NCBI GenBank assembly: GCA_021770065.1
Contig: JAETRR010000010.1
Location: 1 to 64,000, forward strand
Source of the DNA: Lachnoclostridium sp.
GTDB taxonomy: Bacteria; Bacillota; Clostridia; Lachnospirales; Lachnospiraceae
Direction: 5' to 3'
DNA length: 64,000 nt
The notes beneath the pieces are model-generated. The model was given only the letters and a program-made list of their open reading frames with translations. It searched no databases and had not been told where the DNA came from. Of the stretch, positions 4,885-57,896 are shown piece by piece. Within the stretch, counting starts at the first letter, position 1, and each line of letters starts with the position of its first letter. The position numbers and the translations under genes were made by a program.

Positions 4885-5004
4885 GTGAGAAAACTTAGAA
4901 GACTTGTAGCCAAGGCACACATGAGAAAGGCCGGTATTCATAAGCCTTTCAAGAAGTACAAAGACGGTAGTTTCTTCTCCAATCATTGGAGAGAGTACCT
5001 GTAA
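4885..5004 (+). CDS. Small basic phage protein (39 aa)
   Basis: SD AAAGGAGGGAAGGA; VRKLRRLVAKAHMRKAGIHKPFKKYKDGSFFSNHWREYL. Confidence 0.55.
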   Translation: MRKLRRLVAKAHMRKAGIHKPFKKYKDGSFFSNHWREYL

Positions 5005-5905: not shown

Positions 5906-6876
5906 ATGGAAGAGATTAAGAAAGAATCTGGAGAAGTCAGAGGATATAAGGTATTCAATCCGGATTGGACATGCAGAGGGTTCCAGTACGAAGTCGGGAA
6001 AACTTTTGAGGAAGATATCGATCCGTCCTGTTGTGACCGCGGATTCCACTTCTGCACCAATGCAGTAGATTGCTTCAGATACTATGACTTTAATCCCAAA
6101 AACAAAGTGGCAGAAGTGGTCGCTTTGGGGAAAGTGGATTGTTCAGAGGGTGGTACAAAGTGTTGTACCAATAAGATTCTGATTGTGCGTGAAATTCTTT
6201 GGAAGGAAGTACTTAAAATCGCAAATATAGGGAAAGATTGCACAGGATATGGTAACACCGGGGACTGTAACACCGGGAACTGTAACACCGGGAACCGTAA
6301 CACCGGGAACCGTAACACCGGGAACTGTAACACCGGGGACTGTAACACCGGGAACTGGAACACCGGGGACTGGAACACCGGGAACCGTAACACCGGGAAC
6401 CGTAACACCGGGAACTGTAACACCGGGAACTGTAACACCGGGTACCGTAACACCGGGGACTGGAACACCGGGGACCGTAACACCGGGGACTGTAACACCG
6501 GGGACTGGAACACCGGGAACTGTAACACCGGATGCTTTATGACAGAGGAACAGAAGATATCTTTTTTAATAAAGCCTCGGATTGGACCTACACTGATTGG
6601 TTGGAAAGCGATGCCAGACATATCCTCAACCAAATTCCGAAAAATGTTGTTGAATGGATTTGCTCGGGTGATATGACGGATGAAGAAAAAGAGGAACATC
6701 CGGAGTATGAAACTACCGGAGGATATCTGAAAATTTTGGATGAATCGGAATGTGCACAGATATGGTGGGATGGGCTGAATGAACGTAAACGCAACATTAT
6801 TATCAGTATACCTAATTTTGATCTGGACATTTTTGAGAAATGTACGGGTATTAAAATCAGCAAGGAGGATAGCTAA
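5906..6876 (+). CDS. Pentapeptide-repeat (NTG[DN]x) protein in two frames; the C-terminal half (from ~6532) is reached by a -1 shift
   Basis: 5906 frame carries the repeat and ends at 6676; coherent C-terminus FFNKASDWTYTDWLESDARHILNQIPKNVVEWICSGDMTDEEKEEHPEYETTGGYLKILDE is in the -1 frame; junction is T TTT TTA at 6562-6568. Confidence 0.65.
6250..6537 (+). repeat. 15-bp coding tandem repeat (AACACCGGGRACYGK-type), about 19 units
   Basis: Visible periodicity; translates as NTG[DN][CRW]. Confidence 0.95.
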
Positions 6877-26653: not shown

Positions 26654-26732
26654 CACCACCATAAAGGTGTTAAGAATAAATCGACATGAAATGTCGTCAG
26701 CCCGTGAAGTGACGGGCAGAAAGGAGTACGGT

Positions 26733-27341
26733 ATGACAGAAGGAGTATCTTTGGCTGACATTGCGGCGGTTACTGACAGAAATAACGGCTGGGGAAATGG
26801 TATGTGGGGTATGGAGTGGCTGTTTGCGTTGCTTTTGCTCCCCTCTATTACTAATGGTGGTTTCTTCGGTGCAAATGGCCGTGGACAGGCGGTGACGGAA
26901 GCAGGGTTGTGTAATGCTATGAACTTCAATAATTTGGAGAACGCTGTTGGCAGACTTGGCGATCAGGTTGGCACAGTTAATACCAACCTTGGAAATGCTG
27001 TCTGCAATCTGGGTTATGAGACGCTGCGGAACTTCAACAGCCTTGAAGCGCTTATTTCCCAGTGCTGCTGCAACATCCAGAAAGAAATTCTGGAAAGCCG
27101 TTACCAGGCGGCGCAGAACACAAGCGCAATCATCCAGGCGCAGGAGCATGGCACACAGAAGATTCTCGATTGGCTGTGCAACAAAGAGAACCAGAATCTG
27201 CGTGATGAGAACATGAGAAATTACATTAATTCCATGTTCTGCGGTGTTCCGAGATTTCAGCCGGGCACGGTATACGGGAGCATTCCTGTAAATCCGTTTT
27301 TTGGTAGCGGCTGCGGCTGCTGCGGAAACGGCAATATCTAA
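26733..27341 (+). CDS. Hypothetical structural-region protein
   Basis: SD AAAGGAGTACGGT; MTEGVSLADIAAVTDRNNGWGNGMWGMEWLFALLLLPS...GCGCCGNGNI. Confidence 0.7.
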   Translation: MTEGVSLADIAAVTDRNNGWGNGMWGMEWLFALLLLPSITNGGFFGANGRGQAVTEAGLCNAMNFNNLENAVGRLGDQVGTVNTNLGNAVCNLGYETLRNFNSLEALISQCCCNIQKEILESRYQAAQNTSAIIQAQEHGTQKILDWLCNKENQNLRDENMRNYINSMFCGVPRFQPGTVYGSIPVNPFFGSGCGCCGNGNI

Positions 27342-29100: not shown

Positions 29101-29479
29101 AAGGAGCGGCAGTAATGCCGTTCTTTTTATGTAAATGAGACCAGAAATTTTTATTACAACCATGATAAAATTAAGATGTGGATAAATCCATAGACTTCCA
29201 TATTTTTATCCTGTACCTCCTTCCTGCACGCACGCCCTTAAAAGAAACTGTATTTATACAGGAGGATGAAAAGCGGATGCAATTTCCGGCGTGCGTGTTA
29301 TGCACTTGTGGTTATGCTGCCTATATTATAGGTGGCGCAGGTGTATTTGCAGAGCGCCGCTGCTGATGTTGGCGTGGCTGATTTTCCCAACAGAGAATAA
29401 CAATGCCGGTAAGGAAAAAGAAAAAACCAACCGGAATAGCAAAAGGTGGACTGTATGGCGCGCAGAAATTCCACCTAAT

Positions 29480-29632: not shown

Positions 29633-30265
29633 ATGCAGAAACTTATTGAAACCTTGAAATCATTTGGAATTGAGATTCCGGCAGACAAGCAGGCTGATGT
29701 GAAAAAGGCTTTGTCAGAACATTATAAGAACATTGCCGAACACAATAAGGCAGTTTCCAAGCTGGAGACTGACCGTGACACCTGGAAAGAAAAGGCCGAG
29801 ACCGCAGAGGAAACATTGAAAAGTTTTGATGGAATCGACCCAGCGCAGGTCCAGACGGAGCTTGCCACATGGAAGAAAAAGGCTGAGGAAGCCGAGAAAG
29901 AATATAACCGAAAAATCGCAGAGCGTGATTTTGAGGACGCCATTACGGCTGCAATTAAAGAAGCGAATGGAAAAAACACAAAGGCAATCCGTGCGCTTCT
30001 GGACATTGAATCTCTGATGAAATCCAAGAATCAGAATGAGGATGTGAAAAAGGCCCTTGACGCTTTGAAAGAAGCAGAAGACAGCAGTTTCCTTTTTGTG
30101 GATAAGGCACAGCTGCAGGCTGAACAGAATGCGGCGAGATTTGCACCGCCGTTTACGAAGGCGAGAGGGCCGCAGACACCGCCGCCGGGAAAGAAATACA
30201 GCATGTCGGAGCTTATGAAGATGAAGAATGAAAATCCGGGGCTTGACATCACGCAGTACATGTAA
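29633..30265 (+). CDS. Phage scaffolding protein (GP20-like)
   Basis: MQKLIETLKSFGIEIPADKQADVKKALSEHYKN..., coiled coil, directly before MCP. Confidence 0.82.
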   Translation: MQKLIETLKSFGIEIPADKQADVKKALSEHYKNIAEHNKAVSKLETDRDTWKEKAETAEETLKSFDGIDPAQVQTELATWKKKAEEAEKEYNRKIAERDFEDAITAAIKEANGKNTKAIRALLDIESLMKSKNQNEDVKKALDALKEAEDSSFLFVDKAQLQAEQNAARFAPPFTKARGPQTPPPGKKYSMSELMKMKNENPGLDITQYM

Positions 30266-30273
30266 CAGAAGAA

Positions 30274-30344
30274 ACCGACCACGCATTAGGAGTGTGGCCG
30301 CTAACCTAAATCCCTTAATAGTTATGGGTAGAAAGGATATTTTT
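30274..30344 (+). promoter_or_regulatory. Repeated structured leader, copy 1 (upstream of major capsid gene)
   Basis: ACCGACCACGCATTAGGAGTGTGGCCGCTAACCTAAATCCCTTAATAGTTATGGGTAGAAAGGATATTTTT; near-identical to 33835..33908. Confidence 0.8.
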
Positions 30345-31418
30345 ATGGCTTTATTTGACACAAAAAACTTTAACGGCGAAGTGTTCGGGGCCTATGTAGA
30401 CAAGGTCCCTAACCTCAACCGGAATGAACTCTTGAAGTCTGGTGCAATTGTGGAGAAATCACAGTACGCTTCCATGCTCCCGGACCAGACCGGAGGAAAT
30501 TATATTACGATCCCTATTAAGGCGAGAATCGGCGGAACGCCTGAGAATTATGATGGCTCCACAGATATCACGGCAGATTCCAGAGATACGTTTACACACG
30601 GGAGAGTTGTTGTTGGGCGTGCACATGGATGGACGGAGAAAGACTTTTCCACGGACATTACAGGAGAAGATTTCATGGCAGCCGCCGGAGAGGTAGCCGA
30701 GTATTGGGACGACATTGATCAGAAAACCCTTTTATCTACATTGAAAGGGATCTTTTCCATGACCGGGACCGCTAATCTGGAATTTGTAAACGGTCATACC
30801 TATGATGTTTCCAGTGAAGCTGATAGCAATAAGTTTAATGAGACTACTCTTAACAATGCTATCCAGAAAGCCCTTGGAGACAATAAGTCAAAGTTTTCTC
30901 TTGCAATCATGCATTCCCAGATTGCGACAAACCTGGAGAACCTTAAGCTGTTAGCGTACATGAAGGGCACGGACGCAGATGGTATTGAAAGAGATCTGAC
31001 ACTTGCCACTTTGAACGGGAGGACAGTGCTTGTTGACGACAACATGCCTACCGAGCTTGTGACTGTGCCTGAAAGCGCAGAAGGTAAGGGTGATGGTTAT
31101 ACATACACCAAATATACAACCTATGTATTAGGTGCCGGGGCGATTGAGTATACGGATTGCGGTGCAAAGGTTCCTTATGAAATGGGAAGAAACCCGTCAA
31201 AGAATGGCGGAGAGGATACCTTGTATAGCCGCCAGAGAAAGATTTTCTCCCCTTACGGTATTTCCTTTAAGCAGCCCTCTTTCATATCCCCTACAGATTC
31301 ACAGCTTGAAGTCGGAACTAACTGGAGCCTGGCAAACAATAACGCATCGGCGACCAAGGATCAGAAGTATTTCCCGGTCAAGGCCATTCCGATTGCAAGA
31401 ATCATCACAAGGGGCTAA
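30345..31418 (+). CDS. Major capsid protein
   Basis: MALFDTKNFNGEVFGAYVDKVPNLNRNELLKSGAIVE...; position after scaffold. Confidence 0.85.
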   Translation: MALFDTKNFNGEVFGAYVDKVPNLNRNELLKSGAIVEKSQYASMLPDQTGGNYITIPIKARIGGTPENYDGSTDITADSRDTFTHGRVVVGRAHGWTEKDFSTDITGEDFMAAAGEVAEYWDDIDQKTLLSTLKGIFSMTGTANLEFVNGHTYDVSSEADSNKFNETTLNNAIQKALGDNKSKFSLAIMHSQIATNLENLKLLAYMKGTDADGIERDLTLATLNGRTVLVDDNMPTELVTVPESAEGKGDGYTYTKYTTYVLGAGAIEYTDCGAKVPYEMGRNPSKNGGEDTLYSRQRKIFSPYGISFKQPSFISPTDSQLEVGTNWSLANNNASATKDQKYFPVKAIPIARIITRG

Positions 31419-31420
31419 TC

Positions 31421-31918
31421 ATGGCGTACACAGATTACACCTTTTACAAAGATCGGTACTTCGGGACTATCATCCCGGAGGCCGATTTCCCCCGTCTCGC
31501 CGAGCGCGCCAGTGACTTCATCGACACCATAACCTTTGACCGGTTAGCGGACGGTCTACCCTCAAACGAGCGTGCCTCTGTCAAGGTGAAGAAAGCCGTG
31601 TGTGCGGTGGCGGATGCGCAATATCAAATTGAGCTGGCCGAAAAGCAGGCTCTTAGTGCGGCACAGGGTACATCAACCACATCGGGAGTTGCGGCCGGGA
31701 CAACGGGCGTGATTACCAGCAAATCATCCGGATCTGAATCCATTTCCTTTGCCTCTCCGTCTGAACTGGCTGGGAGCGCAAAGGAGTGGTCAGCTATTTA
31801 CACGGCGGCCGGGAATGCAAAGGAAACCAATAAGCTGTTGACGGAAACGGCAATTCCGTATCTGTCCGGCGTTAAGGATGATAAGGGGGAATGTCTGCTA
31901 TATGCAGGAATAAGATGA
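31421..31918 (+). CDS. Head-tail connector protein
   Basis: MAYTDYTFYKDRYFGTIIPEADFPRLAERASDFIDTITFDRL. Confidence 0.72.
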   Translation: MAYTDYTFYKDRYFGTIIPEADFPRLAERASDFIDTITFDRLADGLPSNERASVKVKKAVCAVADAQYQIELAEKQALSAAQGTSTTSGVAAGTTGVITSKSSGSESISFASPSELAGSAKEWSAIYTAAGNAKETNKLLTETAIPYLSGVKDDKGECLLYAGIR

Positions 31919-32070
31919 AGATTCCAAATATTATCAAAAGATTATTCTGTAAACACAGCAAAACAGCCTATCTGCGCTCATATCTTGACGACCACCCAAA
32001 CGGCGGATATATCACCCGTCATATCTGGAAGTGTAAGGAGTGCGGAAAGGAGATTATAGGAGGTAAATAA
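31915..32070 (+). CDS. Small zinc-ribbon-like protein (51 aa)
   Basis: MKIPNIIKRLFCKHSKTAYLRSYLDDHPNGGYITRHIWKCKECGKEIIGGK. Confidence 0.55.
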   Translation: MKIPNIIKRLFCKHSKTAYLRSYLDDHPNGGYITRHIWKCKECGKEIIGGK

Positions 32071-32328
32071 ATGGATTTTGGAATTACAGGCATTGCGGCA
32101 ATCACTGTTATTTGCTTTTTGATTGCGCAGGGTGTAAAAGCTACATCTATTGACAACAAATGGATTCCTGTTATCTGCGGCATGATTGGCGGTGCTTTGG
32201 GAATCGCAGGAATGTATGTCATGCCCGAATATCCGGCAAATGATGTTATCACGGCGGCGGCCGTTGGAATTGTGTCTGGATTTGCGGCAACCGGCGTACA
32301 CCAGGCCTATAAACAGATTAAGCAGTAA
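32071..32328 (+). CDS. Phage holin-like protein
   Basis: MDFGITGIAAITVICFLIAQGVKAT...WIPVICGMIGGALGIAGMYVMP...AAAVGIVSGFAATGVHQAYKQI. Confidence 0.8.
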   Translation: MDFGITGIAAITVICFLIAQGVKATSIDNKWIPVICGMIGGALGIAGMYVMPEYPANDVITAAAVGIVSGFAATGVHQAYKQIKQ

Positions 32329-32346
32329 ATTAATGGGGGATATCAC

Positions 32347-32841
32347 ATGTATGAGGCAACCGTGACCGTATTCAACAAATACAAATCAAAAACCGCCTTT
32401 ATGTGGTATCCCCATGTCTTAACCGGTGTAAACGTGGTAGCGGATAAGGGCCAGATGCTTAAGCAGTACGGGCCGGACAATAAAGACAATGCGGAGCTTC
32501 ATGTGGCGTACATGGAAATGGACGGGAAAAAGGTTATTATTGACGGAATGACCGGGGATCCGATTCTTAATACTTTGGGAGAGCCGATTTCCTGGCTTAA
32601 GCCGGAGGACTGGAAAAAGCAGGTCAATGATCTTCTGGCTGACACCATTACATTTAATACCGGAGACTTTTTCTGGATCGGCGAATGGGACGGCGGCCCG
32701 GTGAATGATGAAGATTATTTCATTGGCCGGAACGAGGGCTTTTACTCTTACATGAACAGCGAACATGATTTCGTGTATCTGGTATCCGGTATCAGCCTTC
32801 CATATACTTTGATTCCGTATTTTCCGATATTGGGGGAGTGA
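32347..32841 (+). CDS. Head-closure-region protein (DUF6751-like)
   Basis: MYEATVTVFNKYKSKTAFMWYPHVLTGVNVVADKGQML; family recalled. Confidence 0.65.
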   Translation: MYEATVTVFNKYKSKTAFMWYPHVLTGVNVVADKGQMLKQYGPDNKDNAELHVAYMEMDGKKVIIDGMTGDPILNTLGEPISWLKPEDWKKQVNDLLADTITFNTGDFFWIGEWDGGPVNDEDYFIGRNEGFYSYMNSEHDFVYLVSGISLPYTLIPYFPILGE

Positions 32842-32843
32842 TT

Positions 32844-33323
32844 ATGGCAAAGACAGTACATTTTAAAAGCTTCTCCATTGTCCAAGGTGACATCAAGATA
32901 AATCTGAACCTTGACCGGTTCAGTAAGCAGTTCCAAAAGGCACAGTATGAGCTTGACGGAAACGTTATGAACAGCATGGTTCCGTTCATGCCGCATAATA
33001 CCGGATTATTTATTGATGTGACCAGGGCGGCGAGTGCGGCTATACAAGGTTCTGGAAAGGTATATGCTGCTTACGGACCGGAGAAAGACGAAGAAGGCCG
33101 AGGCGGATATGGTAGGTTTCTTTACGAAGGAAAAGTCATGGTTGACGAAGAAACCGGATCTCCATGGGCTAAGAAGTCTCATAAGAAAATAGTCACGGAT
33201 CGCCCTTTGCGGTATACAAGGACCCACAATCCGCAGGTCACATCACACTGGTTTGATGCCGCTAAGAAAAAAGACTTGGACAAGTGGGTGAAACAGGCTA
33301 AGAAAACGGCAGGAGGTGGTTAA
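32844..33323 (+). CDS. Minor capsid / head-tail joining protein
   Basis: MNSMVPFMPHNTGLFIDVTRA...YGRFLYEGKVMVDEETGSPWA...ITSHWFDAAKKKDL-type region. Confidence 0.72.
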   Translation: MAKTVHFKSFSIVQGDIKINLNLDRFSKQFQKAQYELDGNVMNSMVPFMPHNTGLFIDVTRAASAAIQGSGKVYAAYGPEKDEEGRGGYGRFLYEGKVMVDEETGSPWAKKSHKKIVTDRPLRYTRTHNPQVTSHWFDAAKKKDLDKWVKQAKKTAGGG

Positions 33324-33821
33324 TTGCAAAAGGAAGAACCAAAGCCGATTGGCGAGGATGTCGGAGGATTCGAGGAAATCACGCAGGCGGTAAGAGTGCT
33401 GCTGAATCAATTTCCGGGGCTTTCCGAAGATGAAGAAGTGAATTTTGAGACATTCGAGGACGGAAACAATCTAATCTTCTCGAACGACAGCGGAGCCTTG
33501 GTATACAACGAGAAAGAGGACGTTACCGGCGGCGTGTCGCAGGAATGCCGTTACCCGTTCTATCTGGTATACCGCAGAACCCTCACCACCGAGCGTGGAA
33601 AGCTGATAGCTTATCAGTTTCTTGACACCTTCGGGAAATGGCTCTGCAAGGAGCCTACTGTCTACGAACACACAAAACCCCCGGCGGAATATCCAAAGCT
33701 TTCCGGCGGCCGGAAGATAACACGCATCCGGCGCAACCTTATTTACGGGCAGGATCCGGCAGAGGACGGGACGCAGGACTGGGTATTGCCGGTGATTGTG
33801 GAATATACGAACGAATTTTAA
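33324..33821 (+). CDS. Minor tail/head-tail protein
   Basis: ORF in conserved position before major tail protein. Confidence 0.65.
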   Translation: MQKEEPKPIGEDVGGFEEITQAVRVLLNQFPGLSEDEEVNFETFEDGNNLIFSNDSGALVYNEKEDVTGGVSQECRYPFYLVYRRTLTTERGKLIAYQFLDTFGKWLCKEPTVYEHTKPPAEYPKLSGGRKITRIRRNLIYGQDPAEDGTQDWVLPVIVEYTNEF

Positions 33822-33834
33822 CAACTGTAAACAC

Positions 33835-33908
33835 ACCGACCACGCAAGCAGAGCGTGGCCGCTAACCTAAAATCCCTTTTAAAAGTTATGGGTAGAAAGG
33901 ATATTTTT
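33835..33908 (+). promoter_or_regulatory. Repeated structured leader, copy 2 (upstream of major tail gene)
   Basis: ACCGACCACGCAAGCAGAGCGTGGCCGCTAACCTAAAATCCCTTTTAAAAGTTATGGGTAGAAAGGATATTTTT. Confidence 0.8.
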
Positions 33909-34451
33909 ATGCCTCAATGGACTTACGCCGAAGGAGATGCCAAAAGAAAGGACTTTATGACCTTTTGGATCACCGACGGAAAAACGGACACAATTTCAAA
34001 AAGCAATCTTGCCATTATCGGCAAAGGAATCGAGGATATGCCTATTTCCTCCAATGCGGAGACCGAAGAAAGCCAGGATGTACTCGGAAACAACAATTTC
34101 GAGATTACCGGCTACGCCAAGAGCATGACCGTAGAACCGATGAAAGTATCCGGAGAAGATAAGTATTCCCAGCACCTTGATGATCTCTTTGAGCGTGATG
34201 CAACGCTTTCAGAACTCCACAATCAGTATTTATGCGTTAAGCGGTATAAGACCGATTCAAGCGGAAAAGCCCGTGCCTGGGTGCAGGAGGGCGTAGTAGA
34301 GCCTGGAGACTTCGCAACCGGGTTGAACGGGGTTGCAACGGCTCACACGGTACATTATGTGGGTTCTAAGACCTTTGGTGTCGTAGATCTGGATACATTG
34401 GAATTTACACCGGATGGAGCTGCAGCCGCATCACTGGATGATTTGTTGTAA
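33909..34451 (+). CDS. Major tail protein
   Basis: MPQWTYAEGDAKRKDFMTFWITDGKTDTISKSNLAIIGKGIED; position before tail chaperones and tape measure. Confidence 0.75.
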   Translation: MPQWTYAEGDAKRKDFMTFWITDGKTDTISKSNLAIIGKGIEDMPISSNAETEESQDVLGNNNFEITGYAKSMTVEPMKVSGEDKYSQHLDDLFERDATLSELHNQYLCVKRYKTDSSGKARAWVQEGVVEPGDFATGLNGVATAHTVHYVGSKTFGVVDLDTLEFTPDGAAAASLDDLL

Positions 34452-46532: not shown

Positions 46533-46553
46533 GTTCAAATCCTGTTACTCCGA
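46533..46553. repeat. attR core (21 bp)
   Basis: Identical to 55..75. Confidence 0.93.
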
Positions 46554-48952: not shown

Positions 48953-49038
48953 CCCTTTCGAATGAAAGTTTCTCTCAATACCAGTGTGTCGAAGCGGCTT
49001 TACCCTTTAGTGCCGTCGCGCAGCGACTTTAAATAGGA
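48953..49038 (+). repeat. Dispersed intergenic element, copy 1
   Basis: CCCTTTCGAATGAAAGTTTCTCTCA...TTTAGTGCCGTCGCGCAGCGACTTTAAATAGGAG. Confidence 0.75.
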
Positions 49039-49046
49039 GATTTAAG

Positions 49047-57802: not shown

Positions 57803-57888
57803 CCCTTTCGAATGAAAGTTTCTCTCATTACTTGTGTGCCGAAGTGACTTTACTCTTTAGTGCTATCGCGCAGCGATTTTGAATAGGA
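57803..57888 (+). repeat. Dispersed intergenic element, copy 2
   Basis: CCCTTTCGAATGAAAGTTTCTCTCA...TTTAGTGCTATCGCGCAGCGATTTTGAATAGGAGG. Confidence 0.75.
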
Positions 57889-57896
57889 GGCAATGA

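Follow-up and report, generated by a model that had tools for sequence, protein, structure and literature searches.

The window (the whole 64,000-nt stretch of DNA that was analysed), contig C71 of a 4.14 Mb genome, contains a prophage. Two nearly identical leaders within it end directly at the start codons of a capsid and a tail gene, and a third, diverged copy lies further upstream. Each leader consists of two hairpins, P1 and P2, followed by a Shine-Dalgarno (SD) sequence. The features are:

26680..26732, + strand: third, diverged leader copy (covariance-model match to 26735); P1 CGACAT-GAA-ATGTCG, P2 GCCCGT-GAAGTG-ACGGGC, SD AGAAAGGAG
26733..27341, + strand: uncharacterised, Gly/Cys-rich gene of the phrog_16490 family (phrog_16490, E 2.6e-11)
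30274..30344, + strand: leader copy 1 (P1-P2-SD), 5' of the major capsid gene; 69.1 bits (model R3), 85.6 bits (R2)
30276..30300, + strand: P1 hairpin of copy 1, CGaCCACGC-ATTAGGA-GTGTGGcCG, with a conserved A.C wobble; covariation in alignments A4 and A6
30301..30332, + strand: P2 hairpin of copy 1, CU-(A bulge)-ACCUA ... UGGGU-AG; conserved 3' part of the loop AAUAGUUA
30331..30338, + strand: SD of copy 1, AGAAAGGA; an SD is seen in nearly all copies of the family
30345..31418, + strand: major capsid protein (MCP) gene (phrog_247 major head protein, E 1.5e-86)
33835..33908, + strand: leader copy 2 (P1-P2-SD), 5' of the major tail (tube) protein gene; 69.2 bits (R3)
33837..33861, + strand: P1 hairpin of copy 2, CGaCCACGC-AAGCAGA-GCGTGGcCG
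33862..33896, + strand: P2 hairpin of copy 2, CU-(A)-ACCUA ... UGGGU-AG
33909..34451, + strand: major tail (tube) protein (MTP) gene (phrog_3099, E 2.7e-34), next after the tail-completion gene

Copy 1 is intergenic, beginning 8 nt past the stop codon of the scaffold gene, with its ATG at 30345-30347; copy 2 begins 13 nt past the stop codon of the tail-completion gene, with its ATG at 33909-33911. The two align over 80 columns, start codon included, with 87.5% identity (blastn E ~1e-21), and are the only strong copies in the 4.14 Mb genome. The 27-nt 3' part of the leader occurs at just two sites in the window even with 3 mismatches allowed, and at none in 100 shuffles. The near-identical pair ending at two ATGs that was described in the initial annotation is thereby reproduced, and the phrog_247 and phrog_3099 matches agree with its naming of the downstream products as the major capsid and major tail proteins; the phrog_3099 family profile also hits a phage tail tube of solved structure (PDB 11ok, E 2.6e-6). 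The hairpin pointed out there, a CCACGC stem with differing loops, is present as described and belongs to P1, but is longer than noted, its stem continuing over the conserved A.C wobble to CGACCACGC in copy 1 and GTGTGGCCG in copy 2. The second helix, P2, which leads into the SD, had been overlooked, as had the weaker third copy.

The third copy is both shorter and lower in score (R3: 22.3 bits, E 3.1e-5; R2: 21.8 bits, E 0.0037; covariance-model E-values are rough). Its minimum-energy fold contains both hairpins (z -2.3). The predicted fold of the phrog_16490 protein, with long helices at a pLDDT of 50, is uninformative. By folding energy copies 1 and 2 taken alone are unremarkable (z -0.5 and -1.4, minimum-energy folding); since single-copy folding energy is not informative, the case for an RNA fold rests on comparative covariation.

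With the leader alone as query, free of its coding sequence, BLAST against phage records gave matches in phages from the human gut and in Dulem virus 35. BLAST with diverged leaders as queries gave no match, as members of the family are too diverged from one another for this method. A first, stricter pattern also gave no matches against viral sequences. Further pattern scans yielded 24 stretches of viral sequence and 9 contigs from genomes, chiefly of Lachnospiraceae, Blautia, and other Clostridia (a prophage of Blautia sp. MSJ-19 has a single copy, L070); a looser pattern at least 111 viral stretches; and covariance models built from the pattern matches 121 further matches. Many of the contigs carrying leaders are fragments. 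More than 100 copies were obtained from these sequence-only searches, nearly all in phages or prophages of Clostridia, and the 44 whole phage records scanned have between one and five copies each. Leader-positive genomes number seven of 299 in the family, five of 392 in the class, and two of 399 in the phylum, with the window's own genome included in each count; this sporadic presence among bacterial species is as expected of prophages. The check for recurrence in gut phages that was proposed initially thus gave an abundant return. The accompanying check against Rfam uncovered no known family at the leaders: Rfam 15 had no family match over any leader copy, whether in a cmscan of the window, a permissive scan of 30200-34000, or 16 diverged loci, and the permissive scan gave only a weak, unrelated match at 31732.

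The consensus of the family is AC-P1-P2-AAAGGA-N4-8-ATG, with P1 and P2 abutting without a gap. P1 has the form CGRC(N5), a loop of about 5–10 nt ending in GA, and (N5)GYCG, while P2 runs from CU through a single bulged base, ACC, and two variable pairs to a loop that closes with AANARUUA, and returns through the variable partners, GGU, and AG. ACCG, CGCU.ACC, and GGYAGAAAGG owe part of their invariance to the search patterns, which fixed portions of the sequence but left free the interior of P1, the inner two pairs of P2, and both loops. In alignment A6 (110 aligned copies, 109 distinct), 96.3% of pair cells are standard, compared to 77% when shuffled and at most 54% when slid, and the covariation score is 0.499, compared to 0.142 shuffled (0/500) and at most 0.070 slid. 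Alignment A4 was gathered mainly by patterns containing no part of P1; here six of the nine P1 pairs have changes on both sides, with a covariation score of 0.336 (0.108 shuffled). Helices preserved by compensatory base changes, the mark of a structured cis-acting 5' leader RNA, are thus found in independent sequences. At the third P1 pair, 37 copies have A.C and 52 have G.U (linkage odds ratio 23, p 1e-11); as both are wobbles of similar shape, the distortion itself seems to be kept. Those bases of the P2 loop that were not set by the pattern are nearly invariant (A64 100%, U67 98%, A68 94%), and the P1 loop has its GA in about 80% of copies.

The position is as regular as the fold. All 127 distinct copies with a readable downstream ORF have an ATG 6–10 nt past AGAAAGG, that is, they occupy the fixed site directly upstream of a start codon that is characteristic of a leader, and their arrangement of 5' stem-loop and then strong SD is the one found in leaders of the aprE/STAB-SD type. 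The conservation of structure and position among relatives, whose lack would have counted against the original proposal, is therefore seen in both respects, as heavy compensatory change and as a fixed distance to the ATG. For the bases of the SD, the median probability of being unpaired is 0.67, compared to 0.43 in a small, unmatched set of 16 leaderless capsid homologues. A 16S sequence was not found in the window's own genome or in a Blautia genome. An SD-sequestering switch was considered and rejected, as the alternative CCU:AGG pairing occurs in the window copies but is not general.

By annotation of cluster representatives of the downstream proteins, the 127 copies precede about 37 capsid, 42 tail-tube, and 45 phrog_16490 genes, and three others (a tape measure, an endolysin, and one unidentified gene). 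Extra copies in whole phage records likewise precede tape-measure and endolysin genes. The commonest single family is phrog_16490. The capsid targets belong to phrog_247, 544, 10, 371, 422, and 1328, plus one Foldseek-identified MCP group (E 4e-13), and the tail-tube targets to phrog_3099, 158, 88, and relatives. About 20 records hold a capsid and tail twin like that of the window; at least six pairings of a capsid family with a tail family are represented, and the spacing is usually 2.5–4.5 kb (examples are L004, L009, L010, L056, L060, L112, L120, L135, L156, and genome G103). Concerted evolution of the twins within a phage was rejected, as P1 of the capsid and tail copies differs, by eye, in most phages. 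With phrog_16490 the commonest target, and some copies at tape-measure and endolysin genes, the original restriction of the leader to MCP and MTP was too narrow; since the third copy precedes the window's own phrog_16490 gene, the window phage fits the general pattern of capsid, tail tube, and phrog_16490.

The leader and the genes behind it are separable. Capsid homologues 64–76% identical to that of the window have an ordinary SD without a leader, while other phages with a phrog_544 capsid, unrelated to the window's, do carry one, so the leader travels, or comes and goes, separately from the gene behind it; nor is it essential, since those close homologues manage with an ordinary SD. No convincing leader was found in Lactococcus TP901-1, one Bacillus phage, and one Streptococcus phage, all with phrog_544-type capsids. 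In L119, L134, and L082 there are two or three leaders in tandem, of which the upstream ones have lost SD and start codon and kept both helices, with stems that are different yet complementary. The copies before tape-measure genes (L175, L223) keep P1-P2 with a weak SD. Together these two cases indicate that the P1-P2 fold is selected on its own, and the tape-measure copies also that carrying the module does not simply signal high expression.

It is thus well supported that the P1-P2-SD leader is an RNA family of phages of Clostridia. What it does is less certain. No promoter enrichment was found upstream of the copies, which therefore look operon-internal; this, together with the position, the fused SD, and covariation at the RNA level, points to translation and/or mRNA stability. 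The reading preferred here, to which slightly more belief than doubt attaches, is that the leader is a movable cis-acting 5' element securing the translation and/or stability of virion mRNAs in late operons. The mechanism that we infer is that P1 and P2 would form within the polycistronic late mRNA, directly before the SD of virion genes, where the hairpins would set up a defined start site, open to ribosomes and shielded from upstream structure and decay. Genes bearing the leader would be translated far more than their operon neighbours, the module's own SD and tandem copies would adjust the level, and a host factor (ribosome or RNase) would probably be used, rather than a phage-specific ligand. 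In Bacillus, a 5' stem-loop with a strong SD stabilises mRNAs even without translation (review PMC3997798). The initial annotation had suggested a shared cis-acting RNA of virion genes, and the recurrence, the compensatory change, the fixed distance to the ATG, and the roughly 20 twins all support this strongly; the autoregulation that it also entertained fares worse, as the products are unrelated. An autoregulatory leader would have one product family per RNA family, whereas here the products spread over at least six PHROGs of MCPs, several of MTPs, and phrog_16490, and with the same RNA before unrelated protein families feedback by a capsid or tail product is unlikely. The strong conservation of the P2 loop (AANARUUA) and the retention of the wobble suggest that the leader is bound by a specific partner, which the translation and stability reading leaves unnamed.

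Some of the same evidence would fit a role in processing, in which a host RNase cuts the late transcript just upstream of P1, and P1-P2 with its bound ribosome caps the resulting shorter mRNAs. The flank upstream of P1 is A/U-rich and open; the SD-less upstream tandem copies keep both hairpins with compensatory changes, as the tape-measure copies keep the fold despite their weak SD; and the principle is known in Firmicutes (PMC3997798). The flank has an A/U bias only, however, with no conserved cleavage motif, and the predictions overlap those of the translation and stability reading; cleavage is considered unlikely, though a serious candidate. An RNA-level late regulon, in which one host or phage factor would recognise P1-P2 on all virion genes with a leader and switch or scale their translation jointly, unrelated phages having converged on or traded one control module for capsid, tail tube, and the phrog_16490 protein, is rated as rather doubtful, slightly below cleavage. 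About as doubtful is the regulated translational operator on which such a late regulon would rest, at which a trans-acting host or phage factor would bind P1-P2 (loop AANARUUA, bulge, and wobble) and toggle the virion genes together. Its best hints are the near-invariance of P2 loop bases outside the fixed pattern and the retention of the third P1 pair as A.C or G.U; the frequent GA of the P1 loop, the presence of one fold before functionally linked genes in one to five copies per phage record, and the alternative fold of the window copies, which pairs the AGG of the SD with CCU, would also be in keeping with it. This SD-blocking fold is not general, however, no common factor gene was identified, and the leader is gained and lost between close relatives.

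A transcription element, whether a late promoter inside the operon or an RNA for processive antitermination such as the put of phage HK022, seems very improbable. Two short hairpins in several copies per phage do have a superficial likeness to put, but there is no sigma-70-like promoter enrichment upstream, the fixed 6–10 nt to the ATG and the fused SD favour translation, and what is conserved is RNA pairing and not DNA sequence. Copies 1 and 2 are more alike than most pairs of copies, as might result from a functionless recent local duplication or from shared intergenic filler; this is contradicted by the more than 100 diverged copies, which show compensatory changes and occur in phages whose capsid genes are unrelated, and it is given next to no credence.

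Phages need capsid and tail-tube subunits in large excess over the products of neighbouring genes in the same operon, and how the phages of the dominant gut Clostridia achieve this is, to our knowledge, largely unstudied. One portable RNA fold across unrelated phage structural modules offers a concrete, testable handle on virion stoichiometry. The leader could also serve as a sequence marker for major virion genes with unrecognisable proteins, flagging phrog_16490 as a candidate, and possibly as an expression part for hard-to-engineer Clostridia. A 2017 survey is said to include 224 motifs, and a 2023 survey reportedly deals with structured RNAs in viruses and phages; the leader may be an unnamed table entry in these. 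It is absent from the main text of two large surveys (PMC8040213, PMC2864571).

Among described systems, the stabilising leaders of Firmicutes (aprE, ermC, cryIIIA STAB-SD) share with it one or more cis-acting 5' hairpins and a strong SD in a fusable module (PMC3997798), but these are individual elements at transcript 5' ends, whereas the phage leader is a conserved two-hairpin family, apparently operon-internal and present in many unrelated phages. Ribosomal-protein leaders (L20, L10, and S15 type) are also structured RNAs that immediately precede the start codons of genes for abundant structural proteins. They are bound by the protein they encode, whereas the phage leader has no Rfam leader match and its downstream proteins are unrelated to each other, so that an encoded product is unlikely to be its common ligand. 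The T4 gene 32 leader and the coat-protein operator of RNA phages are mRNA structures at the start site that control an abundant phage protein, both repressed by their own gene product; these are single-gene elements, while the phage leader is one family across several virion genes. The put RNA of HK022 is likewise a small phage RNA of two hairpins that acts in cis and is repeated within the genome; it acts on RNA polymerase in early transcripts, whereas the leader described here belongs to late genes, with whose SD and ATG it is fused.

The gene most frequently found downstream of the leader is that of phrog_16490, which follows it at L144, L158 and about 43 further loci from other phage records and genomes, as well as in the window. 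The protein is Gly-rich, with a hydrophobic N-terminus, long predicted helices and a Cys-rich tail, and is a candidate for an abundant virion protein. This gene and the other features considered here are as follows (window coordinates unless stated).

26733-27341, phrog_16490 gene, window member
L015 5993-6104, leader variant before the capsid gene of Dulem virus 35
29227-29297, + strand, RAGATH-21 RNA (RF03097), 81 bits
29479-29555, + strand, tRNA
55-75 and 46533-46553, identical 21-nt repeats of a tRNA 3' end
6185-6589, 15-nt tandem repeat array
48953-49039 and 57803-57889, near-identical 87-nt repeat pair

In the Dulem virus 35 variant, an insert of about 50 nt with an additional hairpin separates P2 from the Shine-Dalgarno (SD) sequence. 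The RAGATH-21 RNA and the tRNA lie within the prophage structural region, closely 5' of the scaffold and capsid genes, and the 21-nt repeats are probably the prophage attachment-site repeats. The tandem array, with a 150-nt unit in 18 overlapping registers, is overlapped by ORFs of both strands.

The 87-nt pair is a dispersed host repeat, with 32 copies in the window's own genome and 5-38 per species in seven further species of the same genus; it was not found beyond the genus among 40 relatives searched. Each member of the pair ends shortly before an ATG, in one case that of a DAP-epimerase gene and in the other that of a gene without assigned function.

At L041-L046, where the tail-tube homologues have about 70% identity to the window protein, the gene is preceded (5' of local position 5001) by a terminator-like hairpin, TAGAGCCA...TGGCTCTATTTTTAT, which differs from the leader and is followed by an SD and then GTG.
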